Source: Hetaerina americana
Taxonomy: Eukaryota > Arthropoda > Insecta > Odonata > Calopterygidae
Direction: 5' to 3'
Length of the DNA stretch: 64,000 nucleotides
Assembly: GCA_022747635.1 (NCBI GenBank)
Contig: JAKTNV010000020.1
Span: 300,501-364,500 of the forward strand
Under the pieces are notes generated by a model that was not told the origin of the DNA, searched no databases, and saw only the letters and a list, made by a program, of their open reading frames with translations. The first letter of the stretch is position 1; every line of letters starts with the position of its first letter. The translations under genes and the position numbers were made by a program. Shown here piece by piece: positions 9,471 through 55,170 of this stretch.

Positions 9471-9988
9471 AGAAGAACTCCAATACCGTTATTTCGGTCA
9501 CCAGGTGACCATCTACGGGGAGCGAATCGAATGGGGACTTGAACTTGGAAGAAGACTATGCACCAGGCACTGTCCAAAGTCAAGTGGGTGTTCAGGCCAG
9601 ACCAGACCAGAACCCATTTTGTCTGGGCGTTTGCCCTATCGAAATAAGCTGCTTCGGTGCGACAACGTCCACCCCTTCAGCTGCAGTGATTGTGTAATCG
9701 GCACGTGGGATACAATAACGAACGAAAGTGTAAGTGACGAACGTGTACCTATCCAGTGTTAGTGAAGGAGAAATTGAAAGAAAGACCACTAGTGGGTTGG
9801 CAATTGGCCGTAACTTAAGAAGAGGAACTGAAATGAATTACCTTAATTTTAAGGGCTGGAACATTTTGCCCATTTACTCGTCAACAAGACGGAATAACGT
9901 TAACTAATCCTAAAGCCTTAAAATTAAACACTAACTTATTAACTCTGGGCTACAATTTATTTTTTTCTGTTTTGCATATATATATATA
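9471..9988. other. Intergenic, no gene seen
   Basis: The 85-codon plus-strand frame at 9505-9762 has no recognisable domain. The remainder is AT-rich. Confidence 0.45.
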
Positions 9989-10214
9989 CACATTCAAACA
10001 CGAAATCCCGCCAAACGGCGAATAAATACTCATATATACAGAAACATATATAAGGAAAAGGGATAGGAACACGTATAAAGGACGAACACAATAGAGGTGG
10101 GGAAGGCGGAATCGAACGGATCACAAGAGTAAAAATATCTCCTCAACCGGGACTCGAACACCGGATCTTTCCACTTGCCGGGCGGATGCTCTTAACCCCT
10201 CTCGCCATCTCACC
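9989..10214 (-). repeat. tRNA-derived SINE-like sequence, inverted, 5' flank of Tx1-like copy 1
   Basis: On the minus strand the segment begins with a tRNA-like head (about 10214-10138) with a D-arm-like GGTTAAGAGC, a 5-bp anticodon-type stem around a 7-base loop, and a B-box-like GTTCGAGTCCCGG. It continues with a tail (TATTTTTACTCTTGTGATCC and onward) matching the sequence right after the LINE at 15.87-16.04 kb, in the opposite orientation. It ends with AT-rich DNA and a block (CCGTTTGGCGGGATTTCGTG) that also precedes copy 2 at 48.8 kb. The acceptor and T stems are imperfect, so it is not a functional tRNA gene. Confidence 0.75.
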
Positions 10215-10719
10215 CCTTGACGCCATCTCTTGGCTAAAGAATCGGGGCGCTTGGCGACATATAAGACCCACGGATCTCAGGGTAAATTACATATCCTCGA
10301 TAGCTGCCTCGATAGCAGGACGTGCCTGTGTTCACCGAGTGTCTAAAATTCGCCGGCGTCCGAGGCTTCGGCCGCCGGGGTTTGGAGAGCGGCACTGCCG
10401 GACTCTCTCAGAAATCGAGGTTCCGATCGTGTTTTGTTTCGAGCGGCGGTTGACCGCCTAGTTCATCAAGAAGCGTGCAGTTTGACTCTCGACTTCTTCC
10501 GCCGGGAAGGCCGTGCCTTTGTTTTGTTTACTGGATCAAGACTGACCTTGACTACTAGTGTAGAGCTTAGGCTCCTTTTTATTTGCTACCGCCGGGTGCG
10601 CGTAGCGGGGAGGGAGCGTTCGTGAGTGTTTTTTTTTTCTTTCTTTCCTTCTTGGAGTGCTTTCAGTGCGCTCTTCTTCTTTTCTTGGCGCTGGCGTGCT
10701 CCATTTGATTTCTTTCAAA

Positions 10720-12309
10720 ATGGTCGTACGTCGCGTAAACACGCTCGCCTTGCAAGTTGATGAGAAGGCGAAACCCCCTACTCCGTTGGAGGTCCACCTC
10801 TTTACACTAGAGTCGCTGGGCCTCACACCCGAAGAGATTGTGGCGATCCAATTTGGATATAACCGCCATTTGGTATTCCTGAAATTGGCAACTGAAGCTA
10901 CTATGAAGAGGATTCTAGATCTTATCCCACGAAAACTACCGTTTCCATCCAAAAATGATCCGAGGACGACGATTACTATTGACGAGACCTCCGGTAGCCC
11001 TTGTAATGTCAGGGTTCTATGTCTCCCCGTGGAGACCCCATTGGAAGATATAACAGGCGAGCTTCAGCGTTTTGGAAAAATCCATCGCTCGTGGGAGAAC
11101 AGGTGGGAGGGCGACAAATTGGCGCGCGTGTTAACAGGTACGAGAGTGGTGCGGATGACGGTCGAAAGAAATATCCCCTCGTACCTCCACATCGGCGGCA
11201 ACCGGGCCATCATCATCTACGAGGGTCAGCGCCGCACCTGCGCCCGTTGCAACCAAGAAGGCCACGAGCGCAAGACCTGCCCTCGGAACCAGGGAGGGAA
11301 GAGCTATGCGGAGGCAATGTTTTTGGCCTCTAATCCGAACACCGCCGAGGAGATAGATGAGCCCGAGATGGCTGTGGAGGAGAGGGCGCGGTCCCTGATA
11401 CTTATCGAGGGTGCGCCCCCAGCTGTTCCCGCCGAACCCCCGCATCCCCCTCCACTTGGAGGGAAATTTCAGAGGGAGCGAAAGTCGTCAACGGAAGAAA
11501 GGGATCCGAAGAAGAAGAGAACGGACGACATTGCACTGCTGATTTCGAACATCGATCAAGCTGCGGTCCCTACCAGCTCGGATACACACTCACGACCACC
11601 GGCTCCTATCTCCGTGACCCCGTCAAAAGAGGACAGATCATCCTGCGTCCTTCCTTTCTCTGGCCACGCCAACGATGCGTTCTCCCCGCAATCCTTGCTT
11701 CACGGGCTGCTAACTCCCCAAGAATCACGGGTGACAGCGGGGGAGGATGTATCCGATTGCGACTGTCCCCCTTCCTCAACGGCGGGTCCCTCCATTATGG
11801 TATCACGGAAAATCAAGAAAGTATCACCGGCCGCGGAAGTTGACACATGTACGAGCAAAACCTTGTCGACGTCAACAATCCCAGACATTCCATCGTCATT
11901 CTCCTTTGAGGACAGCCAAGGTGTCGACGATCTTCCCAGGGCTCCTCTAGAGGCGGACCAATTCGACCGATCTCCTCTAATTTCTCCCGATGGGGCCCCT
12001 TCGGCAGAAGACCACCAGTCCGCCACCCCGCCCCCCCCTGAGGCCACCTCCTGGGCTGGGACGGCCCACAGCTCTGCTCGCTCGAACAGGGCCCCCCGTG
12101 GAATGCCGCCAAGTAACCCGCTCTTCGTAGAAACCACGGCTGGGTCTTCCTCTTCAGACGAGGTCGGAGGGGAGGTATGCGGTGGCAACTCGAGACCTCG
12201 ATCGTCGACCCGTCGGACGAAGCGTCCTGGGAAGCGGCGAAGCACTCGTCGCCCGGGTTCGAGCCGCGACCGAAGCGACGTAAGCCATGACCAGGACTCT
12301 GGTAAGTGA
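10720..12309 (+). CDS. LINE ORF1 protein (gag-like, CCHC zinc knuckle), copy 1
   Basis: A 529-residue protein starting at the ATG at 10720 (context TTTCAAAATGG); the open frame extends upstream but without an ATG. Residues from about 20 to 155 look like a folded, RRM-like nucleic-acid-binding region, ending in a CCHC knuckle CARCNQEGHERKTC (C-x2-C-x4-H-x4-C) near residue 180. The C-terminal half is low-complexity, rich in Ser, Pro, Glu and Asp, and the last 40 residues are very basic (RRTKRPGKRRSTRRPGSSR). ORF1 proteins of this type bind element RNA and form the ribonucleoprotein needed for transposition. The stop codon TGA shares its A with the ORF2 ATG (TGATG). No frameshift or stop is present. 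Copy 2 encodes the same protein with few changes. Confidence 0.9.
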   Translation: MVVRRVNTLALQVDEKAKPPTPLEVHLFTLESLGLTPEEIVAIQFGYNRHLVFLKLATEATMKRILDLIPRKLPFPSKNDPRTTITIDETSGSPCNVRVLCLPVETPLEDITGELQRFGKIHRSWENRWEGDKLARVLTGTRVVRMTVERNIPSYLHIGGNRAIIIYEGQRRTCARCNQEGHERKTCPRNQGGKSYAEAMFLASNPNTAEEIDEPEMAVEERARSLILIEGAPPAVPAEPPHPPPLGGKFQRERKSSTEERDPKKKRTDDIALLISNIDQAAVPTSSDTHSRPPAPISVTPSKEDRSSCVLPFSGHANDAFSPQSLLHGLLTPQESRVTAGEDVSDCDCPPSSTAGPSIMVSRKIKKVSPAAEVDTCTSKTLSTSTIPDIPSSFSFEDSQGVDDLPRAPLEADQFDRSPLISPDGAPSAEDHQSATPPPPEATSWAGTAHSSARSNRAPRGMPPSNPLFVETTAGSSSSDEVGGEVCGGNSRPRSSTRRTKRPGKRRSTRRPGSSRDRSDVSHDQDSGK

Positions 12310-15300
12310 TGTCCGGTGCCCATAGCTGTCCTCTCATTCCACCAATGAATATTGTTTCGCTTAATATTGCTGGCGTTTATAGCGCTTTAAAAATTGCAGT
12401 CCTCCAACGTTTTCTCCGCGACCTTAGGGCTGATGTAATCCTCCTTCAAGAGGTAAAGGAGGACATAGTCTGGGATGCGAACATCTTTCAGGCTATCGGC
12501 AATTTCGCCGAAAGTCATTCTGGCACCACCACCCTAGTCCGAAATGGCATTCCGTTCTCTCATGTTCGCCGCCACCCCTCGGGCCGAATAACGTCCGTTA
12601 TCGTGAATGGTATCCATATCACAAACCTTTACGCTCCCTCCGGTGAGCGCGCGAGGGCAGAGCGCGAAACATATTTCAATGAACTTCTCCTCCCGTACCT
12701 GTATTCCTTCTCGGGGAGGGCCATATTGGGGGGAGATTTTAACACTATCTACCGCCGAGAGGATAGTGCCTCGAACAGGGATAACGTGACATACTATCCA
12801 AGCCGGGCGCTCTCACTGATGCTCGACTCCATTAGAGCGATTGACGCAGTGCGTTCTTATTGCGCCGGTCCCGCCCCCTTCACGCGATCAGGGCCTAACT
12901 CTCGGACGCGGATTGACTACCTCTTCGTCTCGACATCCCTAAAGAATGATGTCCAGACAGTGGACACCCTCCCGGTGTCCTTCTCTGATCACTGCGCAGT
13001 GATCATTGGAGTTACGTGCCCGGACACAACCCCGGGCGCGCACGTCCACCGCTGCGGCTCCGTGTGGCGCATGGACCTCCGCGTGTTGGAGGACGCGACT
13101 CGTCGTGATTCTATCCGCACCCGGGTGTGTGCACTGATCGCGGCACTCCGTCCCGGTGCAAACCTCGCTCTATGGTGGGACGAGGTTTTCAAACCCCACA
13201 TTGTCACCCACATCAAAAGGCAAACTTTGGAGTGGCGTAGGGAAAAGAACTACACCATCTCCTTCTACCGCCGAGCGCTGGAAGAGCTCCTGCGTAAGGA
13301 TGTGGCGCCGGAGGGTTTCCACGCCCAAGTTTCGTCCCTAAAAAAAATTATCCTGGGCCACGAGCTCCAAAAATACGCTCCCCAACAGTGGCAAAAAGAA
13401 CTGGACACGGATAAAGGGGGCCCCCTAACGCTATCTGAGCTTCGGCGCTGGATGAAATCCAACTCTGGCTCCGATATAGACAGAATCCCTGTCAGAGAAT
13501 CTGCCGCCGGTGACACCGACCTCCTTAAGGAAGCGGGCCGGCACTTTCAAAACACCTTTAACAGGTATCCTCCATGGAAGGAGGGAGACGCACCCCCTCT
13601 CCCCCCTCTCCCTACGCTTCCTACAGATCAAAAAGACGATCTTTGTCGAGACATAAGTTCAGACGAACTGGACTGCGTCTCGTCCATGTTCCCGAAGGGC
13701 AAAGCACCCGGCTTGGACGGCCTACCCTTTGAATTTTATTTAGCGTACTGGGATGTTTTAAAACCTATTTTAACCCACCTTTTTAACTGTATTTTAGCTA
13801 GCGGCTCTCTGACTGCAAGTCAGAGGACCGCCGTGATAACGCTTATACCAAAGAAGACGCGGCCAAAGTCGTTCAACGACTTCAGGCCAATCGCCCTTTT
13901 AAACGCAGACTATAAAATATTGGCGCACGTCCTACGATGTAGAATGACGGCTGCTGCCGACATCGTCCTCTCTCCATCCCAGTACGCCGTGTCGAAAACG
14001 CGAAACATTTTCGATGCAGCACTTTTAATTCGTGACATCATTTTTTCCGCCCCCTTGTATGGTGATCGTTTTTTATCACTCGTGGCTATCGATCTTGAGA
14101 AAGCATTTGACCTGGTCCGGATCGAATGGATTCTCACCGTGCTCAAGAAGATGGCCTTCCCCGAGTACTTCATTCGTGCCGTATCAACGATGTATAACGG
14201 AATATACTCTATAATTAGGATAAACAATGCCACCTCGCCGCCCATCCCCGTCAGTAACTCCGTTCGGCAGGGCTGCCCACTGTCAATGCTGCTGTTCGCC
14301 CTTGCCTTAGACCCCATACTCAGACGACTACAGAGCAGTGGAATCGGGGTACGTCGTCACGGCGCCGTCTGCCTGGGCGTCGCATACGCTGACGACATAA
14401 CGCTCTTCGTAGACGACCCGTCCCACATGGCCCTAGCCCACGACATATTAAAGTCATATGAGCAGGGTGGTATCTTCCTCAATAACCGGAAATCCGGGTT
14501 TTTGCTGCTGAAGGGCGACCGGCCCTCGAACTCCATCGGTTGGTCAGAAGCGCCCTCGCTCAAAATCTTGGGGTTCTGGTGGGAGAGGGAGTTGGCTCCC
14601 ACGATTGAGCGAAACTGGGGAATTATTGACCATCATGTAAAATGGAGTGTTGGAAAGCTTTCACTCCCTTCCCTCCCGATCGTGACCCGCGTCCGCCTCC
14701 TCAATCAGATTGTCTTCCCAAGGATATGGTATGTGGCCCATCTATGGCCCTTACCCACTAAATACAACGCATACTTTATTAGAGTGTCCAACCAAATGAT
14801 CTGGAATGGCTACGTAAAGAAAGTGTCCCGAAACCAGCTCTATGGCCCGTTTGAGCAGGGTGGTCTCAATTTAACCGATACAGCTCTAAAGGCGAAGGTG
14901 GTCTACGCGAAGCTTAGCCTGCGCATCCTCGGCGGTGACGACGCGTGGCGCAAGGCACTCCTCAAGGACGCGTGGCAGGAACTCGCGCGCGACGTATGCC
15001 ACCGGAGGGCATTTGATGAAACGAAAAAAGTCGCTTCTCTCCTGCGAGATGGAGAAGCAATTCGGGTGAAGACCCTGTATGTCAGAGCGCTTACCGAGCA
15101 GCAACAAGATACATTAAAAAGAACGATTTCTTGGAAAAACTGGGCGACCAGCAGGGCGAACGATGAGGCACGTAGTGGAATGTTTAACCTAATCGCGAAC
15201 ACAGTCATGACGAGGGAAGTGAGGCACCATCTTCGGCTAGCCGATTCGCCCCTTTGTCCGTCATGCGGTCGAATAGACAACGTCGCACATCTCATCCTTG

Positions 15301-15587
15301 GATGCAACGATAAAATCAGAGAATGGGAAGCTCTAAAAAAGATCTATAAAACCTGGGACGTGTTCGGTGGTGGTGCCATTACCGACATGAATCTGATCAC
15401 CTTGAACTTTCGGCTCTTTCCGAGCTTCAAATCCTTCATAATGACCACCCTAATCGTGGAATTCACACAGATGAGAACCGCGAATAAACATTCCGCTAAA
15501 GGCATGCAAGCATTGGTGGAACGGATGTGGCTGCCCCCGGTACCGGACACACTTCGTCCGTGGTTAAAAAGTTGTTTTTCTGAATAA
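12309..15587 (+). CDS. LINE ORF2 protein (endonuclease, reverse transcriptase), copy 1
   Basis: A 1,092-residue polyprotein. Residues 1-240 form an APE-type endonuclease with LLQEV, NLYAPSG, GGDFNTI, RIDYLFVS and SDHCAV in the expected order. A linker to about 440 is followed by RT: KGKAPGLDGLPFEFY, FNDFRPIALLNADYKI, LVAIDLEKAFD (catalytic Asp), SVRQGCPLSMLLFALALDP and AYADDITLF (YADD catalytic pair). The C-terminus has CPSCGRIDNVAHLILGC (C-x2-C-x7-H-x4-C). All catalytic motifs are present, so it may be active. The start is the ATG of the TGATG overlap with ORF1, which suggests translation by termination-reinitiation, as shown for the insect element SART1 (there UAAUG). It would carry out target-primed reverse transcription in the nucleus. 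Confidence 0.92.
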   Translation: MSGAHSCPLIPPMNIVSLNIAGVYSALKIAVLQRFLRDLRADVILLQEVKEDIVWDANIFQAIGNFAESHSGTTTLVRNGIPFSHVRRHPSGRITSVIVNGIHITNLYAPSGERARAERETYFNELLLPYLYSFSGRAILGGDFNTIYRREDSASNRDNVTYYPSRALSLMLDSIRAIDAVRSYCAGPAPFTRSGPNSRTRIDYLFVSTSLKNDVQTVDTLPVSFSDHCAVIIGVTCPDTTPGAHVHRCGSVWRMDLRVLEDATRRDSIRTRVCALIAALRPGANLALWWDEVFKPHIVTHIKRQTLEWRREKNYTISFYRRALEELLRKDVAPEGFHAQVSSLKKIILGHELQKYAPQQWQKELDTDKGGPLTLSELRRWMKSNSGSDIDRIPVRESAAGDTDLLKEAGRHFQNTFNRYPPWKEGDAPPLPPLPTLPTDQKDDLCRDISSDELDCVSSMFPKGKAPGLDGLPFEFYLAYWDVLKPILTHLFNCILASGSLTASQRTAVITLIPKKTRPKSFNDFRPIALLNADYKILAHVLRCRMTAAADIVLSPSQYAVSKTRNIFDAALLIRDIIFSAPLYGDRFLSLVAIDLEKAFDLVRIEWILTVLKKMAFPEYFIRAVSTMYNGIYSIIRINNATSPPIPVSNSVRQGCPLSMLLFALALDPILRRLQSSGIGVRRHGAVCLGVAYADDITLFVDDPSHMALAHDILKSYEQGGIFLNNRKSGFLLLKGDRPSNSIGWSEAPSLKILGFWWERELAPTIERNWGIIDHHVKWSVGKLSLPSLPIVTRVRLLNQIVFPRIWYVAHLWPLPTKYNAYFIRVSNQMIWNGYVKKVSRNQLYGPFEQGGLNLTDTALKAKVVYAKLSLRILGGDDAWRKALLKDAWQELARDVCHRRAFDETKKVASLLRDGEAIRVKTLYVRALTEQQQDTLKRTISWKNWATSRANDEARSGMFNLIANTVMTREVRHHLRLADSPLCPSCGRIDNVAHLILGCNDKIREWEALKKIYKTWDVFGGGAITDMNLITLNFRLFPSFKSFIMTTLIVEFTQMRTANKHSAKGMQALVERMWLPPVPDTLRPWLKSCFSE

Positions 15588-15864
15588 CTGTGCTTCAAAG
15601 CTATCAATAATTCCAACCAAATCTAATGTTCCGTCGCTAATCCAAATAATTCCTTCTATATTTTGTGAACCCTGCCTTTATTATTTCCTTCCACAGTATT
15701 GTTCATGGTCACAATTGTTTTATGCCATGTATATGAATTTATGTCTATGTAAGTGTGTAACCATAATAAGGAAAAAAATATTCTGTAACCATAATCTGTA
15801 AGCTGACAATGTGTACAATGTAAACACTAGCAGTGTAACATACTAGACCGAATAAAAATAAATT

Positions 15865-16048
15865 GAACCATAGCTCAAGTGGTTAAGAGCATCCGCCCGG
15901 CAAGTGGAAAGATCCGGTGTTCGAGTCCCGGTTGAGGAGATATTTTTACTCTTGTGATCCGTTCGATTCCGCCTTCCCCACCTCTATTGTGTTCGTCCTT
16001 TATACGTGTTCCTATCCCTTTTCCTTATATATGTTTCTGTATATATGA
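15865..16048 (+). repeat. tRNA-derived SINE-like sequence, 3' flank of Tx1-like copy 1
   Basis: Immediately after the LINE 3' UTR, a tRNA-like head (15865-15940) has A-box-like TAGCTCAAGTGG and B-box-like GTTCGAGTCCCGG, with an anticodon-type stem TCCGC/GTGGA around the loop CCGGCAA. A tail TATTTTTACTCTTGTGATCC to about 16,048 matches, inverted, the sequence 5' of the LINE. The same head and tail follow copy 2. It may be a SINE into which the LINE inserts, or a tRNA-like part of the LINE's own 3' end. Confidence 0.75.

Positions 16049-16110
<62 letters not shown>
16049..16110. repeat. (TA)n microsatellite
   Basis: About 60 bases of pure TA dinucleotides close the SINE-like tail. They are followed by T-rich DNA to about 16,200. 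Confidence 0.95.
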
Positions 16111-16114
<4 letters not shown>

Positions 16115-16306: not shown

Positions 16307-17110
16307 TTATATATAATTTGTAATAAAAGATTTTAACAAAGTATTAACGAAATATTTACAATTAGAGAACCCTTGTTTAACTGCACTAAATATTTTCGCA
16401 CTTATAAAAGAAATAAAAGTCGTTGGAAAGAATTCGGTTTTGTTACTAAAATTTAATTTCTTTTGGAAGTCTGTAGCTCGGACGGCGTTTTCTATGTAGG
16501 GAGTATCCCATATGTTTTTTGTAAGCGTGTTTCGTGGAAGGGACCTCTCGAGTCGTTTGGCTTGCGCTCGAATGAAGTCGTGTACTTTAGGTATTTTGTG
16601 TGCGTTTCTGATCTCCTGTATCGGTACGAGTTTACTCTGGTTTGTGAGGTAGCGAAGTGTTTTATTCTGGAATGTTTCTAAGCGATTTCTGTCGGTTTTT
16701 GTCGCGTTCCCGAAAATTTCGCAACCGTACAGCATCCTGGGACGGATATAGGAAAGATATAATCTGATTTTTACTCGGTGCGTGAGGCGCGATTTGGAGC
16801 ACGAGAGTGGAGACCAATTCCAAAGAAACTGCGGGAGATGCCGCAACAGGCATCTCCCGCAGAGAGGACGCCTCGGTAGCTTAAGTGGCTAAAGCACTCG
16901 ACCGGATATTGAGGGATCTGGGTTCGAGTCCCAGTCAAGGCGAATGATTTTTACGCTCTGAAATTGTTGCATTGGAGACCAAAGTGCTCTTGTGCCCCTT
17001 GCTATTTGTAAGGCATGCTGTACGTGCGTGGCCCATATCAGTCTGTAATCGAAATGTATCCCTAAGAATTTGTGTGAGAATTTCGTCGGAATACGCACGG
17101 ATTAAAAGGT
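16307..17110 (-). pseudogene. Jockey-like ORF2 C-terminal region, split by a SINE
   Basis: On the minus strand the upstream part (about 17,110-16,983) encodes a typical RT C-terminal start (an LRDTFRLQTDMGHA-like stretch ending ALWSP). After the SINE insertion it resumes with YLSYIRPRMLYGCEIFGN and continues to the end of the domain at 16,307. In Jockey elements the YKSILRPIWTYG-type motif lies at this place. The frame reading out of the SINE (MRHLPQFLWNW...) is an artefact of the insertion. Confidence 0.75.
16818..16972 (+). mobile_element. tRNA-derived SINE with hairpin leader, 10-bp target-site duplication
   Basis: A 155-bp insertion flanked by TGGAGACCAA at 16808-16817 and 16973-16982. 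It has a hairpin leader (14-nt arms 16829-16842 and 16849-16862), a tRNA-like head (16870-16941) and a short tail ending GAAATTGTTGCAT. The tRNA-like part folds well: a perfect T stem CTGGG/CCCAG, an anticodon stem CTCGA/TTGAG, and an acceptor with 6 of 7 pairs. Position 33 is C rather than U, so a working tRNA is unlikely. Related copies lie at 54.86-54.95 and 55.17-55.28 kb. The host sequence is the Jockey-like ORF2. Confidence 0.85.
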
Positions 17111-20466: not shown

Positions 20467-21790
20467 TAGGGTTCGTCCGGAAAATAGGTGTACTGAGCTC
20501 AGGAAAAAAAATTTATTACACTTTTACATATCTTAAGCTAATATTCCTCAAAATAGGACCCTTGTGAGTCGATACACTTGTTCCAGCGGCGTTCCCATTC
20601 CTGGAACGCTCCCGCGAAGGCATCATCGGGAACCTCTCGAAGACACGTCGTCACGGCCTCTTTGACGGTGTCCAAAGTCCCGTATCGCGTTCCTTTCAAA
20701 CTCCTCTTTATCTTCGGGAACAGAAAGAAGTCCGGTGGTGCCAGGTCCGGGCTGTAGGGCGGGTGCGGCAGCGTTGCCACGCCGTGCTTGGCTAAGAAGT
20801 CCGACACGACAAGTGCGGTGTGAGACGGCGCATTGTCGTGATGCAGCCGTCAGATGTTTTTGATCGCTGGCCGGACGCGGGCGACTCGTTTTCGAAGCCT
20901 GTCGAGCACTTGGACGTAAAATGCAGCATTTACAGTTTGTCGTTCAGGTACAAATTCGTAGTGGACGACTCCCCTTTAGTCAAAAAAGACAATGAGCATC
21001 GCCTTGATCCGAGATTTGCTCATGCGAGCTTTCTTTTGACGGGGTGATGATGGGGTGTGCCACTCCGCACTTTGTCTCTTCGACTCCGGGTCGTACTCAA
21101 AGATCCACGTCTCGTCACCCGAAACAACGTTCTCTAAAAAATGTGGATCATTTTTGCAGTGATCCGCAAGTTGTGTCGCGATTTCCAAACGATTGAGTCT
21201 TTGATCATCACTGAGCACTTTCGGCACCAACTTTGCACAAATTTTTCGCATCTGTAATTGCTCCCTAATAATCTCGTGCACTATTGTTTTTGGCACATTA
21301 CACTGCTCTGCTATCATCCGAACACTAAGACGACGATCAGAGTTCAGTACATCGCGAACTTTTCGCACATTTTCGTCGGTGAGTGTCGTTGATGGGCGTC
21401 CAGGCCGTGGGTCGTCGTCGACCTCTTCTCTGCCCTCCACGAACATCTTGTGCCACCGAAAGATCATGTTTCTGGACATGGCTCACTCCCCGTAAGCCTG
21501 GTTAATCATACCGACAGTTTCGGTAGACGATTTCCCAAGCTTAACCGCAAATTTGATGGAATAACGCTGCTCCAAAAACTTCGGCATCGCGTTCCGTGAC
21601 GTGGGTCGAGCGTGGAGGTTCGCGTTAACAGAGCTCCTCACTACACCACAGCTCAGAGCCGACTGCCTTTTTCAGCGTCGCTTGCCAACATACCCCCCTC
21701 CAATCGCAGCCCGTCAGAGCGGTGCTGGGCGCGCCTGGAGCGGCGGGAAAAAATCAGTAGTCAGTACACTTATTTTCCGGACGAACCCTG
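20467..21790 (-). mobile_element. Mariner transposon, full-length, non-coding-competent
   Basis: A 1,324-bp element bounded by inverted repeats: GGGTTCGTCCGGAAAATA at the left and the complement TATTTTCCGGACGAACCC at the right, with TA next to the right end. A 557-bp deletion derivative lies at 38,558-39,114 and is otherwise almost the same. The transposase lies on the minus strand and has three in-frame stops. Confidence 0.92.
20538..21587 (-). pseudogene. Mariner transposase with three in-frame stop codons
   Basis: A single frame from the ATG at 21587 to the stop at 20538 would give about 349 residues, the usual mariner length. It shows the N-terminal HTH region (RWHKMFVEGREEV, PRPGRPSTT), the first catalytic Asp in SGDETWIFEY, the second in HHDNAPSH and the third in SPDLAPPDFFLF, 34 residues later (DD34D). 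The reading is broken by TGA near 21,483, TAA near 20,974 and TGA near 20,834, all in frame with no indel, so it died by point mutation. It might still be mobilised by a related transposase. Confidence 0.92.
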
Positions 21791-21796
21791 TATGTG

Positions 21797-30476: not shown

Positions 30477-30545
30477 TTGCAAAAGTTACGTAGCCAAGAG
30501 TACATCTATCTCTGTGTGTGTTGGCGATTTTTTACAATTTCAGAA

Positions 30546-31619
30546 ATGGATTTAAATTTGCAACAACGAACTTGTATTAAATTTTGCGTAAAAAACGGAT
30601 TTAGTGGCGCACGGAGGTTGGAAATGTTGGAAAAGTGTTTCGGCAACGATTCTCTAAAAAAAACGGTTGTTTACCAGTGGCACGAGCGGTTCAGAAGTGG
30701 TCGTGAGTCAATCGAAGATGATGAACCCAGTGGCAGACCATCGACATCGAAAGTCGGTGAAAAAATTGATAAAGTAAAAGAAATGTTGGTCAATAACCGC
30801 AAATTAACCATCAGACAAATAGCGGAGGACTTGAACATTGCCTATGGATCCGCCCAAGACATTGTGGTTAATGATTTGGGTTTCCGTCGTGTAGCAGCAA
30901 AGTTGGTGCCAAAAGACCTCGATTTCATGCAAAAAAGAGACCGTGTTGACGTCGCAAAAGACATGATTTGCGAGGCTGAATCCGATCCCACATTCATCAA
31001 AAGGATCATTACTGGAGACGAGACGTGGGTTTATGAGTACGACACGCAATCCAGACATCAGGCAAGTGAATGGCGTTCACCAAATGAGCCGAGACCAAAA
31101 AAACCACGTCGTTTTCAGTCAAAAAAGAAGGCAATGCTGACGGTTTTCATGGATTACAACGGTGTAGTGCATCATGAATTTTTGCCAGAAGGCCAGACAG
31201 TAAACAAAGAGTATTATTTGGGCGTTATGAGACGTTTGCGTGAAGCAATTCGCCGAAAGAGACCAGAAATGTGGGCAGAAAACTCGTGGATTTTGCACCA
31301 TGATAACGCACCGTCGCACAGTGCTATCATTATTCGTAATTTTTTGACGAAAAATGCAACAAATACCATCCAACAGCCACCGAATTCACCTGATTTGGCT
31401 CCCTGTGACTTCTTTCTGTTCAATCGAGTTAAAAAACCATTACGGGGAACGCGTTTTAGCAGCCGAGAGGAAGTAATGGAAAAATCGCAGGAAGCACTGA
31501 TGGACATACCGAAAACCGAATATAAAAAATGTTTCGAGGATTGGATCAAGCGCCGGCATAAGTGTGTTGCAGTCGATGGGGATTACTTTGAAGGGGACAA
31601 TATAGATTTAGATGAATAA
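30546..31619 (+). CDS. Mariner transposase, intact open reading frame
   Basis: A 357-residue protein from the ATG at 30546; the open frame extends to 30477 but the family start fits Met-Asp-Leu-Asn-Leu-Gln. It has two HTH regions (residues 1-110) with the GRPSTSK linker, then TGDETWVYEY (first Asp), WILHHDNAPSH (second) and SPDLAPCDFFLF (third) exactly 34 residues after the second: DD34D, the mariner signature. The C-terminus WIKRRHKCVAVDGDYFEG is normal. Length and motifs are complete and there is no stop, so it could be an active cut-and-paste transposase acting in the nucleus at TA sites. The terminal inverted repeats were not located by eye. Confidence 0.93.
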   Translation: MDLNLQQRTCIKFCVKNGFSGARRLEMLEKCFGNDSLKKTVVYQWHERFRSGRESIEDDEPSGRPSTSKVGEKIDKVKEMLVNNRKLTIRQIAEDLNIAYGSAQDIVVNDLGFRRVAAKLVPKDLDFMQKRDRVDVAKDMICEAESDPTFIKRIITGDETWVYEYDTQSRHQASEWRSPNEPRPKKPRRFQSKKKAMLTVFMDYNGVVHHEFLPEGQTVNKEYYLGVMRRLREAIRRKRPEMWAENSWILHHDNAPSHSAIIIRNFLTKNATNTIQQPPNSPDLAPCDFFLFNRVKKPLRGTRFSSREEVMEKSQEALMDIPKTEYKKCFEDWIKRRHKCVAVDGDYFEGDNIDLDE

Positions 31620-38557: not shown

Positions 38558-39114
38558 CAGGGTTCGTCCGGAAAATAAGTGTACTGAGCTCAGGAAAAAA
38601 AATTTATTACACTTTTACATATCTTAAGCTAATATTCCTCAAAATAGGACCCTTGTGAGTCGATACACTTGTTCCAGCGGCGTTCCCATTCCTGGAACGC
38701 TCCCGCGAAGGCATCATCGGGAACCTCTCGAAGACTCGTCGTCGACCTCTTCTCTGCCCTCCACGAACATCTTGTGCCACCGAAAGATCATGTTTCTGGA
38801 CATGGCTCACTCCCCGTAAGCCTGGTTAATCATACCGACAGTTTCGGTAGACGATTTCCCAAGCTTAACCGCAAATTTGATGGAATAACGCTGCTCCAAA
38901 AACTTCGGCATCGCGTTCCGTGACGTGGGTCGAGCGTGGAGGTTCGCGTTAACAGAGCTCCTCACTACACCACAGCTCAGAGCCGACTGCCTTTTTCAGC
39001 GTCGCTTGCCAACATACCCCCCTCCAATCGCAGCCCGTCAGAGCGGTGCTGGGCGCGCCTGGAGCGGCGGGAAAAAATCAGTAGTCAGTACACTTATTTT
39101 CCGGACGAACCCTG
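38558..39114 (-). mobile_element. Mariner-derived MITE (767-bp internal deletion of the 20.5 kb element)
   Basis: A 557-bp element with intact inverted repeats (CAGGGTTCGTCCGGAAAATA and its complement) and TA on both sides. Its left 178 bases and right 379 bases match the element at 20,467-21,790 almost base for base, so it arose by deletion of the segment corresponding to 20,645-21,411. A short CGTCGTC repeat lies at the junction. It has no transposase capacity. Confidence 0.93.
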
Positions 39115-39165
39115 TACCCCCCGCCACACGCCCTTGCGGCGGCTTGCGAGGTATTATGTATGAAG
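39115..39165 (+). repeat. CR1-like LINE 3' end stub, inverted relative to most
   Basis: CCCCCCGCCACACGCCCTTG and GGCGGCTTGCGAGGTATTAT form the complement of the stub block at 23.2 kb. The MITE inserted into or next to it. Confidence 0.6.
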
Positions 39166-47893: not shown

Positions 47894-48255
47894 TCATCCC
47901 TCAAGAGTCCAGTATATATGTATACAAAATAGCAAGCAAGGGAGGGTAGTGGTGGGAAGAGGGAGGAAAGGTGGAAGGCAGCATGGGTGACTACGCACGT
48001 GAAAAGGGGGAAGGGAAGGGGGTGGGGAAGACATAGTAAACAGGTGCAAAATTCTTCAAGGTCCGGAGAGAACGTCCTAGCTGGTTGGAGGGGGATTTCC
48101 TGTTGCCGAAATCCAAAGGGGTGTGTCCCAAAGTGCTGTTCCATAGTGGTCTGTGGAAAAAGAGGGTGAGGTCGGGGCTCCCCCCCCTGGTCAGTTACTG
48201 GGCACATGGTCTTAATACCCAAAGAAGCACAGGGCAAAAAGGGGTGAAAACCGGT
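47894..48255. other. Intergenic, purine-rich, no gene seen
   Basis: No supported feature. Confidence 0.4.
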
Positions 48256-48382
48256 GATTAGGGATCACAAGGGATATACGGGTAATTAAGGATCACTAGG
48301 GATATTAGGGTAATTAGGGATCACTAGGGATCACTAGGGATATTAGGGTAATTAGGGATCACTAGGGATCATTAGGGATATC
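48256..48382. repeat. TAGGG-rich minisatellite
   Basis: About 127 bases of degenerate tandem units built from ATTAGGG, ATCACTAGGG and ATATTAGGG. A composite unit of about 28 bases (ATTAGGGATCACTAGGG and onward) recurs. The insect telomere repeat is TTAGG, so this resembles an interstitial, telomere-like array, though it is not a clean TTAGG tract. Confidence 0.8.
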
Positions 48383-48830
48383 ATGGTTCCAGGAGGCATG
48401 CCCTAGCAAGGGTTAGCGGAAGGGTGGAGGATGGATTTTCCTCACTTTCAAATTGCCGATGAGGTGGGGGGGAGGGAAGCCTTCCCTGCGAAATCATACG
48501 ACGCCAGGACTTGGCACTCATCAATGAAGTCCAATTTTCACCAAGACCCTCCCCTCCACTCCATCTCCTTCCCAAAACGAACATGAGGTAAATGATCCCT
48601 TGTCCCTCCCTACTCTCAGGAATTCCCCTCCCCTGTGCGAACGGAAACCATGCTTTCCCAACCAAGGTGGGAAGCCCTGACTCCCCACCCTCTTTCTTCA
48701 TGGAGAAATACACACCACACAAGAGAAAAGGTCAGTGGGTTAGAATTCATACAACATCATACAGGAAAGGAACAGTGCGTTTCGTGGCACGCATAACCAG
48801 AAGAAAGAGATGAGCCACATTGGCCAAATA
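48383..48830. other. Intergenic, no gene seen
   Basis: No supported feature before the SINE-tail fragment. Confidence 0.4.
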
Positions 48831-48920
48831 CACATTCAAACACAAAATCCCGCCAAACGCGAATAAATACTCACTTATATAGATTTATAGATATTTCTTC
48901 TTTGGTGGGTGAAACAGCCC
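48831..48920 (-). repeat. SINE tail fragment, inverted, 5' flank of Tx1-like copy 2
   Basis: CACATTCAAACAC and AATCCCGCCAAACGCGAATA match the far tail of the inverted SINE-like sequence 5' of copy 1 (9,989-10,035). The tRNA-like head is missing here and about 30 unmatched bases precede the LINE start. Confidence 0.7.
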
Positions 48921-49424
48921 CCTGACGCCATCTCTTGGCTAAAGAATCGGGGCGCTTGGCGACATATTAGACCCACGGATCTCAGGGTAAATTACGTTTC
49001 CTCGATAGCTGCCTCGATAGCAGGACGTGCCTGTGTTCACCGAGTGTCTAAAATTCGCCGGCGTCCGAGGCTTCGGCCGCCGGGGTTTGGAGAGCGGCAC
49101 TGCCGGAGTCTCTCGGAAATCGAGGTTCCGATCGTGTTTTGTTTCAAGCGGCGGTTGACCGCCTAGTTCATCAAGAAGCGTGCTGTTTGACTCTCGACTT
49201 CTTCCGCCGGGAAGGCCGTACTTTTGTTTTGTTTACTGGATCAAGACTGACCTTGACTCCTGGTGTAGAGCTTAGGCTCCTTTTTATTTGCTACCGCCGG
49301 GTGCGTGTGGCGGGGAGGGAGCGTTCGTGAGTGTTTTTTTTTTCTTTCTTTCCTTCTTGGAGTGCTTTCAGTGCGCTCTTCTTCTTTTCTTGGCGCTGGC
49401 GTGCTCCATTTGATTTCTTTCAAA

Positions 49425-51014
49425 ATGGTCGTACGTCGCGTAAACACGCTCGCCTTGCAAGTTGATGAGAAGGCGAAACCCACTACTCCGTTGGAGGTCC
49501 ACCTCTTTACACTAGAGTCGCTGGGCCTCACACCCGAAGAGATTGTGGCGATCCAATTTGGATATAACCGCCATTTGGTATTCCTGAAGTTGGCAACTGA
49601 AGCTACTATGAAGAGGATTCTGGATAATATCCCACGAAAACTACCGTTTCCATCCAAAATTGATCCGAGGACGACGATTACCATTGACGAGACCTCCGGT
49701 AGCCCTTGTAATGTCAGGGTTCTATGTCTCCCCGTGGAAACCCCATTGGAAGATATAACAGGCGAGCTTCAACGTTTTGGAAAAATCCATCGCTCGTGGG
49801 AGAACAGGTGGGAGGGCGACAAATTGGCACGCGTGTTGACAGGTACGAGAGTGGTGCGGATGACGGTCGAAAGAAATATCCCCTCGTACCTCCACATCGG
49901 CGGCAACCGGGCCATCATCATCTACGAGGGTCAGCGCCGCACCTGCGCCCGTTGCAACCAAGAAGGCCACGAGCGCAAGACCTGCCCTCGGAACCAGGGA
50001 GGGAAGAGCTATGCGGAAGCAATGTTTTTGGTCTCCAATCCGAACACCGCCGAAGAGATAGATGAGCCCGAGATGGCTGTGGAGGAGAGGGCGCGGTCCC
50101 TGATACTTATCGAGGGTGCGCCCCCAGCTGTCCCCGCCGAACCCCCGCATCCCCCTCCACTTGGAGGGAAATTTCAGAGGGAGCGAAAGTCGTCAACGGA
50201 AGAAAGGGATCCGAAGAAGAAGAGGACGGACGACATTGCACTGCTGATTTCGAGCATTGATAAAGCTGCGGTCCCTACCAGCTCGGATACACACTCACGA
50301 CCACCAGCCCCTATCTCCGTGACCCCGTCAAAAGAGGACAGATCATCCTGCGTCCTTCCTTTCTCTGGCCACGCCAACGATGCGTTCTTCCCGCAATCCT
50401 TGCTTCACGGGCTTCCAACTCCCCGAGAATCACGGGTGACAGCGGGGGAGGATGTATCCGATTACGACTGTCCCCCTTCCTCAACGGCGGGCCCCTCGAT
50501 TACGGTGTCACGGAAAATCAAGAAAGTATCACCGGCCGCGGAAGTTGACACATGTACGAGCAAAACCTTGTCGACGTCAACAATCCCAGACATTCCATCG
50601 TCATTCTCCTTTGAGGACAGCCAAGGTGTCGACGATCTTCCCAGGGCTCCTCTAGAGGCGGACCAATTCGACCGATCTCCTCTAATTTCTCCCGATGGGG
50701 CCCCTTCGGCAGAAGACCACCAGTCCGCCACCCCGCCCCCCCCTGAGGCCACCTCCTGGGCTGGGACGGCCCACAGCTCTGCTCGCTCGAACAGGGCCCC
50801 CCGTGGAATGCCGCCGAGTAACCCGCTCTTCGTAGAGACCACGGCTGGGTCTTCCTCTTCGGACGAGGTCGGAAGGGAGGTATGCGGTGACAACTCGAGA
50901 CCTCGATCGTCGACCCGTCGGACGAAGCGTCCCGGGAAGCGGCGAAGCACTCGTCGCCCGGGTTCGAGCCGCGACCGAAGCGACGTAAGCCATGACCAGG
51001 ACTCTGGTAAGTGA
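49425..51014 (+). CDS. LINE ORF1 protein (gag-like, CCHC zinc knuckle), copy 2
   Basis: A 529-residue protein from the ATG at 49425, the same length as copy 1. The RRM-like N-terminal region, the CARCNQEGHERKTC knuckle and the basic C-terminus are unchanged. Differences from copy 1 are scattered single substitutions (for example Pro to Thr near residue 19, Leu to Asn in RILDNIPRK, and Asn to Ile in PSKIDPRTT). The open frame extends upstream to 49305, but the conserved AAAATGG context and copy 1 both favour 49425. No stop or frameshift. Confidence 0.9.
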   Translation: MVVRRVNTLALQVDEKAKPTTPLEVHLFTLESLGLTPEEIVAIQFGYNRHLVFLKLATEATMKRILDNIPRKLPFPSKIDPRTTITIDETSGSPCNVRVLCLPVETPLEDITGELQRFGKIHRSWENRWEGDKLARVLTGTRVVRMTVERNIPSYLHIGGNRAIIIYEGQRRTCARCNQEGHERKTCPRNQGGKSYAEAMFLVSNPNTAEEIDEPEMAVEERARSLILIEGAPPAVPAEPPHPPPLGGKFQRERKSSTEERDPKKKRTDDIALLISSIDKAAVPTSSDTHSRPPAPISVTPSKEDRSSCVLPFSGHANDAFFPQSLLHGLPTPRESRVTAGEDVSDYDCPPSSTAGPSITVSRKIKKVSPAAEVDTCTSKTLSTSTIPDIPSSFSFEDSQGVDDLPRAPLEADQFDRSPLISPDGAPSAEDHQSATPPPPEATSWAGTAHSSARSNRAPRGMPPSNPLFVETTAGSSSSDEVGREVCGDNSRPRSSTRRTKRPGKRRSTRRPGSSRDRSDVSHDQDSGK

Positions 51015-54000
51015 TGTCCGGTGCCCATAGCTGTCCTCTCATTCCACCAATGAATATTATTTCGCTTAATATTGCTGGCGTTTATAGCGCTTTAAAAATT
51101 GCAGTCCTCCAACGTTTTTTCCGCGACCTTAGGGCTGATGTAATCCTCCTCCAAGAGGTAAAGGAGGACATAGTCTGGGATGCGAACATCTTTCAGGCTA
51201 TCGGCAATTTCGCCGAAAGTCATTCTGGCACCACCACCCTAGTCCGAAATGGCATTCCGTTCTCTCATGTTCGCCGCCACCCCTCGGGCCGAATAACGTC
51301 CGTTATCGTGAATGGTATCCATATCACAAACCTTTACGCTCCCTCCGGTGAGCGCGCGAGGGCAGAGCGCGAAACATATTTCAATGAACTTCTCCTCCCC
51401 TACCTGTATTCCTTCTCGGGGAAGGCCATATTGGGCGGAGATTTTAACACTATCTACCGCCGAGAGGATAGTGCCTCGAACAGGGATAACGTGACATACT
51501 ACCCAAGCCGGGCGCTCTCACTGATGCTCGACTCCATTGGAGCGATTGACGCAGTGCGTTCTTATTGCGCCGGTCCCGCCCCCTTCACGCGATCAGGGCC
51601 TAACTCTCGGACGCGGATTGACTACCTCTTCGTCTCGACATCCCTAAAGAATGATGTCCAGACAGTGGACACCCTCCCGGTGTCCTTCTCTGATCACTGC
51701 GCAGTGATCATGAGAGTTACGTGCCCGGACACAACCCCGGGCGCGCACGTCCACCGCTGCGGCTCCGTGTGGCGCATGGACCTCCGCGTGTTGGAGGACG
51801 CGACTCGTCGTGATTCTATCCGCACCCGGGTGTGTGCACTGATCGCGGCACTCCGTCCCGGTGCAAACCTCGCTCTATGGTGGGACGAGGTTTTCAAACC
51901 CCGCATTGTCACCCACATCAAAAGGCAAACTTTCGAGTGGCGTAGGGAAAAGAACTACACCATCTCCTTCTACCGCCGAGCGCTGGAAGAGCTCCTGCGT
52001 AAGGATGTGGCGCCGGAGGGTTTCCACGCCCAAGTGTCGTCCCTAAAAAAAATTATCCTTGGCCACGAGCTCCAAAAATACGCTCCCCAACAGTGGCAAA
52101 AAGAACTGGACACGGATAAAGGGGGCCCCCTAACGCTATCTGAGCTTCGGCGCTGGATGAAATCCAACTCTGGCTCCGATATAGACAGAATCCCTGTCAG
52201 AGAATCTGCCGCCGGTGACACCAACCTCCTTAAGGAAGCGGGCCGGCACTTTCAAAACACCTTTAACAGGTATCCTCCATGGAAGGAGGGAGACGCACCC
52301 CCTCTCCCCCCTCTCCCTACGCTTCCCACAGATCAAAAAGACGATTTTTGTCGAGACATAAGTTCAGACGAACTGGACTGCGTCTCCTCCATGTTCCCGA
52401 AGGGCAAAGCACCCGGCTTGGACGGCCTACCCTTTGAATTTTATCTAGCGTACTGGGATGTTTTAAAACCTATTTTAACCCACCTTTTTAACTGCATTTT
52501 AGCTAGCGGCTCTCTGACTGCAAGTCAGAGGACCGCCGTGATAACGCTTATACCAAAGAAGACGCGGCCAAAGTCGTTCAACGACTTCAGGCCAATCGCC
52601 CTTTTAAACGCAGACTATAAAATATTGGCGCACGTCCTACGATGTAGAATGACGGCTGCTGCCGACGTCGTCCTCTCTCCATCCCAGTACGCCGTGTCGA
52701 AAACGCGAAACATTTTCGATGCAGCACTTTTAATTCGCGACATCATTTTTTCCGCCCCCTTGTATGGCGATCGTTTTTTATCACTGGTGGCTATCGATCT
52801 TGAGAAAGCATTTGACCTGGTCCGGATCGAATGGATTCTCACCGTGCTCAAGAAGATGGCCTTCCCCGAGTACTTCATTCGTGCCGTATCAACGATGTAT
52901 AACGGAACATACTCTATAATTAGGATAAACAATGCCACATCGCCGCCCATCCCCGTCAGTAATTCCGTTCGGCAGGGCTGCCCACTGTCAATGCTGCTGT
53001 TCGCCCTTGCCTTAGACCCCATACTCAGACGACTACAGAGCAGTGGAATCGGGGTACGTCGTCACGGCGCCGTCTGCCTGGGCGTCGCATACGCTGACGA
53101 CATAACGCTCTTCGTAGACGACCCGTCCCACATGGCCCTAGCCCACGACATATTAACGTCATATGAGCAGGGTGGTATCTTCCTCAATAACCGGAAATCC
53201 GGGTTTTTGCTGCTGAAGGGCGACCGGCCCTCGACCTCCATCGGTTGGTCAGAAGCGCCCTCGCTCAAAATCTTGGGGTTCTGGTGGGAGAGGGAGTTGG
53301 CTCCCACGATTGAGCGAAACTGGGGAATTATTGACCATCATGTAAAATGGAGTGTTGGAAAGCTTTCACTCCCTTCCCTCCCGATCGTGACCCGCGTCCG
53401 CCTCCTCAACCAGATTGTCTTCCCAAGGATATGGTATGTGGCCCATCTATGGCCCTTACCCACTAAATACAACGCATACTTTATTAGAGTGTCCAACCAA
53501 ATGATCTGGAATGGCTGCGTAAAGAAAGTGTCCCGAAACCAGCTCTATGGCCCGTTTGAGCACGGTGGTCTCAATTTAACCGATACATCTCTAAAGGCGA
53601 AGGTGGTCTATGCGAAGCTTAGCCTGCGCATCCTCGGCGGTGACGACGCGTGGCGCAAGGCACTCCTCAAGGACGCGTGGCAGGAACTCGCGCGCGACGT
53701 ATGCCACCGGAGGGCATTTGATGAAACGAAAAAAGTCGCTTCTCTCCTGCGAGATGGAGAAGCAATTCGAGTGAAGACCCTGTATGTCAGAGCGCTTACC
53801 GAGCAGCAACAAAATATATCGAAAAGAACGATTTCTTGGAAAAACTGGGCGACCAGCAGGGCGAACGATGAGGCACGTAGTGGAATGTTTAACCTAATCG
53901 CGAACACAGTCATGACGAGGGAAGTGAGGCACCACCTTCGGCTAGCCGATTCGCCCCTTTGTCCGTCATGCGGTCGAATAGACAACGTCGCGCATCTCAT

Positions 54001-54292
54001 CCTTGGATGCAACGATAAAATCAGAGAATGGGAAGCTCTAAAAAAGATCTATAAAACCTGGGACGTGTTCGGTGGTGGTGCCATTACCGACATGAATCTG
54101 ATCACCTTGAACTTTCGGCTCTTTCCGAGCTTTAAATCCTTCATAATGACCACCCTAATCGTGGAATTCACACAGATGAGAACCGCGAATAAACATTCCG
54201 CTAAAGGCATGCAAGCATTGGTGGAACGGATGTGGCTGCCCCCGGTACCGGACACACTTCGTCCGTGGTTAAAAAGTTGTTTTTCTGAATAA
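51014..54292 (+). CDS. LINE ORF2 protein (endonuclease, reverse transcriptase), copy 2
   Basis: A 1,092-residue polyprotein with the same motifs as copy 1: LLQEV, GGDFNTI, RIDYLFVS, SDHCAV, then KGKAPGLDGLPFEF, LVAIDLEKAFD, SVRQGCPLSMLLF, AYADDITLF and the C-terminal CPSCGRIDNVAHLILGC. Comparing by eye I count about 20 amino-acid differences from copy 1 (for example IG to MR just after SDHCAVI, Tyr to Cys in WNGCVKK, DTL to NIS in QQQNISKR), none in a catalytic residue. The start is the ATG overlapping the ORF1 stop. Probably still functional. Confidence 0.92.
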   Translation: MSGAHSCPLIPPMNIISLNIAGVYSALKIAVLQRFFRDLRADVILLQEVKEDIVWDANIFQAIGNFAESHSGTTTLVRNGIPFSHVRRHPSGRITSVIVNGIHITNLYAPSGERARAERETYFNELLLPYLYSFSGKAILGGDFNTIYRREDSASNRDNVTYYPSRALSLMLDSIGAIDAVRSYCAGPAPFTRSGPNSRTRIDYLFVSTSLKNDVQTVDTLPVSFSDHCAVIMRVTCPDTTPGAHVHRCGSVWRMDLRVLEDATRRDSIRTRVCALIAALRPGANLALWWDEVFKPRIVTHIKRQTFEWRREKNYTISFYRRALEELLRKDVAPEGFHAQVSSLKKIILGHELQKYAPQQWQKELDTDKGGPLTLSELRRWMKSNSGSDIDRIPVRESAAGDTNLLKEAGRHFQNTFNRYPPWKEGDAPPLPPLPTLPTDQKDDFCRDISSDELDCVSSMFPKGKAPGLDGLPFEFYLAYWDVLKPILTHLFNCILASGSLTASQRTAVITLIPKKTRPKSFNDFRPIALLNADYKILAHVLRCRMTAAADVVLSPSQYAVSKTRNIFDAALLIRDIIFSAPLYGDRFLSLVAIDLEKAFDLVRIEWILTVLKKMAFPEYFIRAVSTMYNGTYSIIRINNATSPPIPVSNSVRQGCPLSMLLFALALDPILRRLQSSGIGVRRHGAVCLGVAYADDITLFVDDPSHMALAHDILTSYEQGGIFLNNRKSGFLLLKGDRPSTSIGWSEAPSLKILGFWWERELAPTIERNWGIIDHHVKWSVGKLSLPSLPIVTRVRLLNQIVFPRIWYVAHLWPLPTKYNAYFIRVSNQMIWNGCVKKVSRNQLYGPFEHGGLNLTDTSLKAKVVYAKLSLRILGGDDAWRKALLKDAWQELARDVCHRRAFDETKKVASLLRDGEAIRVKTLYVRALTEQQQNISKRTISWKNWATSRANDEARSGMFNLIANTVMTREVRHHLRLADSPLCPSCGRIDNVAHLILGCNDKIREWEALKKIYKTWDVFGGGAITDMNLITLNFRLFPSFKSFIMTTLIVEFTQMRTANKHSAKGMQALVERMWLPPVPDTLRPWLKSCFSE

Positions 54293-54565
54293 CTGTGCTT
54301 CAAAGCTATCAATAATCCCAACCAAATCTAATGTTCCGTTGCTAATCCAAATATTTCCTTCTATATTTTGTGAACCCTGCCTTTATTATTCCTTCAACAG
54401 TATTGTTCATGGTCACAATTGTTTCATGTAATGTATATGAATTTATGTCTATGTAAGTGTGTAACCATAGTAAGAAAAAAAAATACTCTGTAACCATAAT
54501 CTGTAACCTGACAATGTGTACAATGTAAATACTAGCAGTGTAACATACTAGACCGAATAAAACTA

Positions 54566-54775
54566 AATTGAACCATAGCTCAAGTGGTTAAGAGCATCCG
54601 CCCGGCAAGTGGAAAGATCCAGTGTTCGACTCCCGGTCAAGGAAATATTTTTACTCTTGTGATCCGTTCGATTCCGCCTTCCCCACCTCTATTGTGCTCA
54701 TCCTTTATGTGTGTTCCTATCCCTTTTCCTTATATCTGTTTCTATATAAATGAATATATATATATGTATATATAT
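54566..54775 (+). repeat. tRNA-derived SINE-like sequence, 3' flank of Tx1-like copy 2
   Basis: Follows the LINE 3' UTR directly: A-box-like TAGCTCAAGTGG, B-box-like GTGTTCGACTCCCGG and the tail TATTTTTACTCTTGTGATCC, ending in AT-rich repeats near 54,775. It matches the 3' flank of copy 1 with minor differences (TCAAGGAAAT for TTGAGGAGAT). Confidence 0.75.
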
Positions 54776-54806: not shown

Positions 54807-55000
54807 CTGCGGGAGACGCCGCAACAGTAACTTTTAACGGAGTCATCCGCTAATAAGAGACTAAAGCACTCGACCGGATATTGAGGGATCTGGGTTTGAA
54901 TCCCAGTCAAGGCGAATGGTTTTTACACTGAAATTGTTGCATTGAAATGCGCATTAGCGGATGACTCCGTTAAAAGTTACTGTTGCGGCATCTCCCGCAG
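54807..55000. repeat. Palindrome with 48-bp arms, SINE in the centre
   Basis: 54807-54854 and 54953-55000 are inverted repeats with about one mismatch (AGACGCC versus AGATGCC). The outer part (CTGCGGGAGATGCCGCAACA) is the same as the hairpin leader of the SINE insertion at 16.83 kb. The outward flank TTTCTTTGGAA on the right also matches that insertion. It could be a foldback element that received a SINE or a composite SINE leader. Confidence 0.85.
54855..54952 (+). mobile_element. tRNA-derived SINE, 5'-shortened, inside a palindrome
   Basis: Contains GACTAAAGCACTCGACCGGA, the T arm CTGGGTTTGAATCCCAG and the tail GAAATTGTTGCATTG shared with the SINE at 16.87 kb. The 5' part of the tRNA-like head, including the A-box, is missing. 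Confidence 0.75.
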
Positions 55001-55170
55001 TTTCTTTGGAATTTGTCAAGGTATAAACACCATAAGTGTTTAAAAGTTGGCTTTAACCTCGTGGACTGTGGCGCATCGCGCACGAATACGAATGCCTGTG
55101 ACATTGTATGTATGGCATTTCGTCACAACATCTAGTTCCTTTAAAAGCCCCAAAATTTCTGAGTTTAACA
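55001..55170. other. Spacer
   Basis: No supported feature between the palindrome and the next SINE. Confidence 0.4.

Follow-up and report, generated by a model that had tools for sequence, protein, structure and literature searches.

In the genome of Hetaerina americana (Odonata, Calopterygidae), a stretch of 64,000 nucleotides (contig JAKTNV010000020.1, positions 300,501 to 364,500; hereafter, the window, in which all positions below are counted) contains two near-identical, full-length long interspersed nuclear elements (LINEs) in the same orientation, copy 1 starting at about position 10213 and copy 2 at about position 48918. Each carries on its 3′ side a tRNA-like segment resembling a short interspersed nuclear element (SINE), and in both of the copies the left flank contains the inverted 3′ end of this SINE-like sequence, with the tail directed outward and the broken end lying 15 nt (copy 1) or 24–34 nt (copy 2) from the start of the LINE. 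Our tentative view is that the inverted arm most likely became joined to the LINE during insertion, and twin priming involving a second RNA accounts for this best; events of this kind are already known. Few steps of retrotransposition are as poorly understood as the joining of the LINE 5′ end to its target, and a family with a recognisable, recurrent inverted piece would make second-strand priming readable straight from the genomic copies. The way in which a 3′ end comes to be common to a LINE and a tRNA-like SINE would become visible in such a family as well.

Inverted arms of copy 1

The longest exact inverted match between the flanks of copy 1 is 172 bp (10026–10197 against 15881–16052), and a BLAST comparison of the window with itself aligned 10022–10200 to 16056–15878 on the minus strand (179 bp, 98.9% identity). 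The 172-bp match is beyond chance, and the inverted ends of about 170 bp that the original prediction had placed around the LINE are real. The prediction had also described a tRNA-like head and a tail on both sides of the LINE; the long inverted match agrees with this, but the left arm has no complete tRNA-like head. Specifically, exact identity between the arms begins at GGTTAAGAGC, at about tRNA position 18, and the bases ahead of it are not alike on the two sides. Upstream of this point, the right side contains a good tRNA 5′ part (ATAGCTCAAGT), whereas the left side has no such part. The Rfam tRNA model matched the right side at 15870–15932 (model positions 7–64; 26.7 bits, below the cut-off of 29), whereas the left side gave no match at E values up to 1.

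The body and the tRNA-like sequence starting at about tRNA position 18 thus make up the left inverted arm (10026–10197, minus strand). The SINE-like segment on the 3′ side of the LINE occupies 15869–16056 (plus strand) and has 93.1% identity to its counterpart in copy 2. Towards the tail, the right arm passes directly into the (TA)n run that forms the outer right end of copy 1 (16040–16114, plus strand), whereas the left arm runs about 40 bases further (TTATTCG...GAATGTG on the minus strand) and then enters a shorter TA run. This outer 3′ tail of the left inverted copy (9986–10025, minus strand) is not present in the right arm. The arms of copy 1 therefore mirror each other only partly, differing ahead of about tRNA position 18 and again past GAGTAT, and TA runs are present at both outer ends. 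Between the left arm and the start of the LINE is a gap of 15 nt (10198–10212, strand not assigned), which contains CGCCATCTC.

Copy 2 and comparison of the two copies

The two copies are 97.9% identical across 5859 aligned columns when the right tRNA-like segment is counted in (48918–54775 in copy 2). The LINE of copy 2 spans 48918–54573 (plus strand), and its SINE-like segment, together with the start of a short TA-rich run, spans 54574–54775 (plus strand). On both right sides, the LINE meets the segment at the same tRNA-like point, about tRNA position 7, and the next 47 nt are identical; the segment of copy 2 also stops in TA repeats at the same place as that of copy 1. The right side of copy 2 (54583–54761) is 91.6% identical to the left arm of copy 1. 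A mirrored arm is missing from the left flank of copy 2, although the outer tail is kept there in the same inverted orientation: only the outer piece was aligned (48828–48883; 57 aligned columns, 91%), reaching 48893 under looser scoring, so that this flank holds the last 56–66 nt of the SINE-like sequence, i.e., the outer tail and the end of the body (48828–48893, minus strand). The 24–34 nt between this piece and the LINE are other sequence. Approximately 500 bp upstream of this LINE is a tandem repeat array (48253–48381), its units measuring about 38, 28, and 10 bp.

Segmental duplication was rejected as the source of the similar left flanks, as the homology ends at the outer tail on the left (9986 and 48828) and within the TA run on the right. 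Because the two loci have unrelated outer flanks, they do not represent one duplicated locus.

The divergence between the copies was 3.0% in the 5′ untranslated region (UTR), 2.2% in open reading frame (ORF) 1, 1.3% in ORF2, 4.6% in the 3′ UTR, and 6.9% in the tRNA-like segment. The right segment and the LINE 3′ UTR were not distinguishable in this respect (13/188 against 13/280, p = 0.31). Meanwhile, the arms of copy 1 differ at 2 of 179 positions (none over the best 172), whereas the two right sides show 13 differences in 188 (Fisher p = 0.007, calculated with the BLAST stretch; a stretch selected for identity, 0/176, had given 0.0002), suggesting that the two arms of copy 1 are probably of more recent common origin.

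Distribution of the SINE-like sequence

A full-sensitivity nhmmer search of the window identified four copies of the SINE-like sequence at E < 1e-7, and all four touch the two LINEs. In the remaining approximately 51.9 kb of the window, the search returned no strong copy, only weak matches. Two of these, at 16890–16966 (E = 0.004) and 55192–55273 (E = 0.044), are part of a different, tRNA-Ser-like repeat, and the other two, at 40681–40575 (E = 0.6) and 35302–35261 (E = 6.7), are at chance level. As the strong copies occur just at the two LINEs, a chance neighbourhood of the LINE and the SINE-like sequence is unlikely. The 29-base core of the SINE had no exact match in the genome contigs or viral contigs searched.

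The tRNA-Ser-like repeat is present in three copies (16865–16974, 54854–54944, and 55170–55279), all lying downstream of a LINE copy at distances of up to about 1 kb, and two of the three were called as tRNA-Ser(GGA) genes. The piece at 54854–54944 is enclosed by 48-bp inverted arms (54807–54854 and 54953–55000, 97.9% identity), and the whole of 54807–55000 resembles a small inverted-repeat transposon with a SINE inside. An end related to these arms, at 16812–16849, adjoins another of the tRNA-Ser-like repeats.

Structure and relationships of the LINE

Both ORFs are open in both copies, and the LINE is apparently intact, as described in the original prediction. In copy 1, the 5′ UTR (10213–10719, plus strand), whose start is placed at the first position where the two copies align, is followed by ORF1 (10720–12309, plus strand; the listed ORF opens at GTG 10657), ORF2 (12306–15587, plus strand; 1093 aa), and a 3′ UTR ending in AATAAAAATAAATTGAAC (15588–15868, plus strand). 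The border between the 3′ UTR and the tRNA-like segment was set where the tRNA match begins and is not an independent junction. In copy 2, ORF1 extends to 51014 and ORF2 covers 51011–54292. ORF1 contains what we take to be a CX2CX4HX4C motif (CARCNQEGHERKTC), which was spotted by eye; a Pfam search with ORF1 found nothing at an E value of 0.1. ORF2 holds both an AP-type endonuclease (PF03372, residues 18–229, E = 6.5e-15) and a reverse transcriptase (PF00078, residues 514–757, E = 3e-26). Between the two copies, the nonsynonymous and synonymous divergences (NG86) were 0.012 and 0.060 for ORF1 and 0.008 and 0.029 for ORF2. This excess of synonymous over nonsynonymous change indicates past selection for the proteins encoded by the LINE lineage.

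Searches with the ORF2 protein covered about 5.8 billion proteins and scored, each time, the 7998 that had the most words in common with it. None of the relatives listed was above 31% identity, and the best-scoring one was at 28%. Judged by these sequences, the LINE family is without a close relative among the proteins scored. A search of prokaryote genome contigs with ORF2 gave nine pattern matches, none of which was a relative. The nearest solved structure was the human LINE-1 ORF2p (E = 7e-40 over residues 15–869), with R2 behind it (E = 3.2e-26). In a quick tree of 39 rows with many long branches (the query and 38 of 40 listed proteins, P0150 and P0158 being omitted), the ORF2 protein joined P0001–P0003 (support 99) within a 16-row group (support 97) that includes a wrasse protein. 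None of the 29 and 34 proteins listed by the ORF2 searches was named Tx1, most of these rows being nameless, and the tree had no named L1 or Tx1 row. The original prediction had labelled the LINE Tx1-like, after the clade that includes Mutsu, Keno, and Dewa. With regard to this putative label, the ORF2 protein is nearer to LINE-1 than to R2 among the solved structures and groups with a fish protein, but no row of the tree bears the name Tx1. With an AP-type endonuclease and a reverse transcriptase of the L1/Tx1 group in one ORF, the LINE is best described as a two-ORF non-LTR retrotransposon of the L1/Tx1 type.

The surroundings are of a repeat-rich arthropod type, with mariner transposases and other reverse transcriptase fragments. 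An open mariner transposase of 358 aa (30543–31616) is 93% identical to protein P0030 (among the best 120 of 2152 matches); where these 120 carry an organism name, it is that of an arthropod. Furthermore, 20468–21792 and 38559–39116 have two stretches in common (185 bp at 98.9% and 381 bp at 100%), which are adjacent at the latter location and about 760 bp apart at the former, and might represent an element with and without an inner part.

Origin of the inverted arm

In the scenario that we tentatively favour, the 3′ end of the LINE would be the tRNA-like, SINE-like segment ending in TA repeats, a structure seen in both of the copies and one that presumably moves with the LINE. During insertion, the first strand would be primed at the 3′ end of the LINE RNA, and the other cut strand would be primed at the 3′ end of a second RNA, probably a SINE or another LINE transcript with the same 3′ sequence. 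The short second complementary DNA (cDNA) would meet the LINE cDNA 5′ end to 5′ end, a small number of filler bases lying between them, and the outcome would be an inverted, 5′-truncated copy of the 3′ sequence ahead of the LINE. A (TA)n target would probably favour such priming on two strands, because either strand could pair with an RNA ending in (UA)n.

The broken ends of the inverted pieces lie near the start of the LINE in both of the copies, and there is no other strong copy of the sequence in the window, suggesting that each inverted piece formed in the same event as the LINE insertion; older, unrelated insertions would give no reason for breaks at just these short distances. The truncation points differ, lying in copy 1 at about tRNA position 18 and in copy 2 at 56–66 nt from the 3′ end, which is what separate cDNAs would be expected to give, and we infer that the inverted pieces at the left flanks were cDNAs. 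The 3′ UTR-like divergence of the right segment is also what is expected if this segment travels with the LINE. The twin-priming-like origin suggested in the original prediction is thus the best fit, as the arm ends near the LINE 5′ end in both copies, but with the modification that a second RNA template is needed and that this is not a plain inversion.

Several points weigh against twin priming with a second RNA, and the case for it rests on two copies. The TTATTCG...GAATGTG tail is found on both left copies and on neither right side, indicating that the two cDNAs started at different RNA positions. If one type of RNA served both sides, internal priming at a UA-rich stretch would be required; if the second RNA was a distinct SINE, the 172 identical bases would be harder to explain. 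At five of six boundary pairs (the LINE alone and the LINE with its right segment in either copy, and the whole unit of copy 2), there was no target-site duplication above chance, and at the sixth, the outer ends of copy 1, there is TA repeat on both sides. The right segment diverges more between the copies than does the LINE taken as a whole (p = 0.00009). Gene conversion is another possible source of the near-identity between the arms of copy 1, and the fixed right junction would equally suit a LINE that targets tRNA-like SINEs or the past capture of a SINE at the 3′ end. As for the gap sequences, CGCCATCTC in the copy 1 gap recurs in the first 50 nt of the LINE, a length reached in 14 of 5000 shuffles, but a match of this length anywhere in the LINE is obtained in 334 of 1000 shuffles, which is not significant, and the copy 2 gap has an 11-nt match to the LINE antisense strand that 30 of 1000 shuffles reach. 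The origin of the copy 1 gap bases as a re-copied LINE 5′ end, and of those in copy 2 as LINE antisense, is only suggestive.

The shared right junction also lies at the centre of an explanation that we consider possible but unlikely, in which a target-specific LINE cuts the tRNA-like head of genomic SINEs at sites that are head-to-head inverted SINE pairs, the right segment being the target and the left arm the inverted neighbour. Both copies join the segment at about tRNA position 7, with the following 47 nt identical, and both have inverted SINE-like sequence on the left, and target specificity is frequent among relatives in the Tx1 clade (PMC4640811), as in Mutsu, Keno, and Dewa (PMC3706591). 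However, neither left flank contains the missing 5′ piece of the SINE head, a duplicated site was not found, the window has no strong SINE copy apart from the LINEs, and the left arms stop at different points, yet both near the LINE. The targeting of a site in paired SINEs, which the original prediction had put forward, is suited by the right junction, but the left sides do not show the rest of a target. Somewhat less probable still is that an independent, older inverted SINE stood beside the LINE and was later brought to identity with the 3′ segment of the LINE by gene conversion, or that a palindromic duplication occurred at the locus, so that the arrangement would be meaningless for the LINE mechanism. 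In copy 1, the identity extends over the homologous part alone and breaks off abruptly on either side, like a conversion tract, and copy 2 has no mirrored arm, but the same inverted outer tail lies near the 5′ end of copy 2, whereas the other approximately 51.9 kb of the window has no strong copy.

Movement of the inverted SINE, LINE, and SINE as one composite mobile unit would account for the SINE-like sequence on both sides of both copies. However, copy 2 keeps the outermost left part and loses the inner part, which 5′ truncation cannot produce, being the reverse of its pattern; moreover, the outer ends are dissimilar, and no target duplication was found except for the TA runs of copy 1. The new composite unit proposed at first is disfavoured on these grounds, and we regard it as very improbable. 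Inverted duplications are a familiar type of artefact, and the arms could in principle be an inverted chimera made during assembly or amplification. The left arm, however, runs on into a tail that is absent at the right and present in the left flank of copy 2, which rules out a simple fold-back of the right side, and an artefact is the least probable explanation of all. Two other candidates were rejected: a plain L1-style 5′ inversion of one RNA, as the LINE is neither interrupted nor inverted, and a template switch of the first strand as the sole mechanism, which yields same-orientation joins (according to the available text of PMC13174262).

Overall, the arrangement was most likely caused by an accident of an already described kind, whose frequency the TA target may have raised. 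A bolder proposition, which we judge improbable, is that the LINE inserts in palindromic (TA)n and regularly primes both strands, such that most insertions, including full-length ones, are fronted by an inverted, 5′-truncated copy of the 3′ sequence as the normal mode and not as an accident.

Comparison with known systems

The closest parallels are found in human LINE-1. In the chimeras described in the available portions of PMC13174262, tRNA segments are mostly antisense to the LINE, for which the authors suggest twin priming, and 83.2% of 452 Alu chimeras are in the sense orientation, a minority being in the opposite one. These chimeras with tRNA, 5S, and Alu sequences resemble the present arrangement in that SINE or tRNA sequence lies opposite to the LINE within one insertion. 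In contrast to them, the inverted piece here copies the 3′-side sequence of the LINE itself, the LINE is full length, the arrangement is present in both of the copies, no target duplication was found, and the LINE belongs to another family. The 5′ inversions that twin priming produces in L1 (Ostertag and Kazazian 2001, cited in PMC4245944 and PMC12016303) similarly involve two cDNAs of opposite direction per insertion and, in human cells, usually have target duplications of 10–20 bp, as reported in the parts of PMC4245944 at hand. Unlike in these inversions, no part of the LINE is inverted here; the inverted part is an extra copy of the 3′-side sequence, for which a second RNA is needed. In the portions of the literature covered by our search, no LINE family is described whose copies regularly bear their own inverted 3′ sequence in front.

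Among the target-specific LINEs covered by the accessible text of PMC3706591, Mutsu inserts in 5S, Keno in U2, and Dewa in the tRNA-Leu spacer. The present LINE shares with Tx1-clade LINEs the AP endonuclease, the L1-like reverse transcriptase, and a fixed junction with small-RNA-like sequence, but its 5′ flank does not supply the remaining half of a target, and its specificity is putative. Finally, SINEs and LINEs with a common 3′ tail, reviewed in PMC3747384, are comparable insofar as the excerpts of that review describe them, because the 3′ side of the LINE here has SINE-like sequence in common with the left copies. Unlike in such tail sharing, however, the common sequence includes the tRNA-like region, and the extreme 3′ ends of the left copies differ from that of the LINE.

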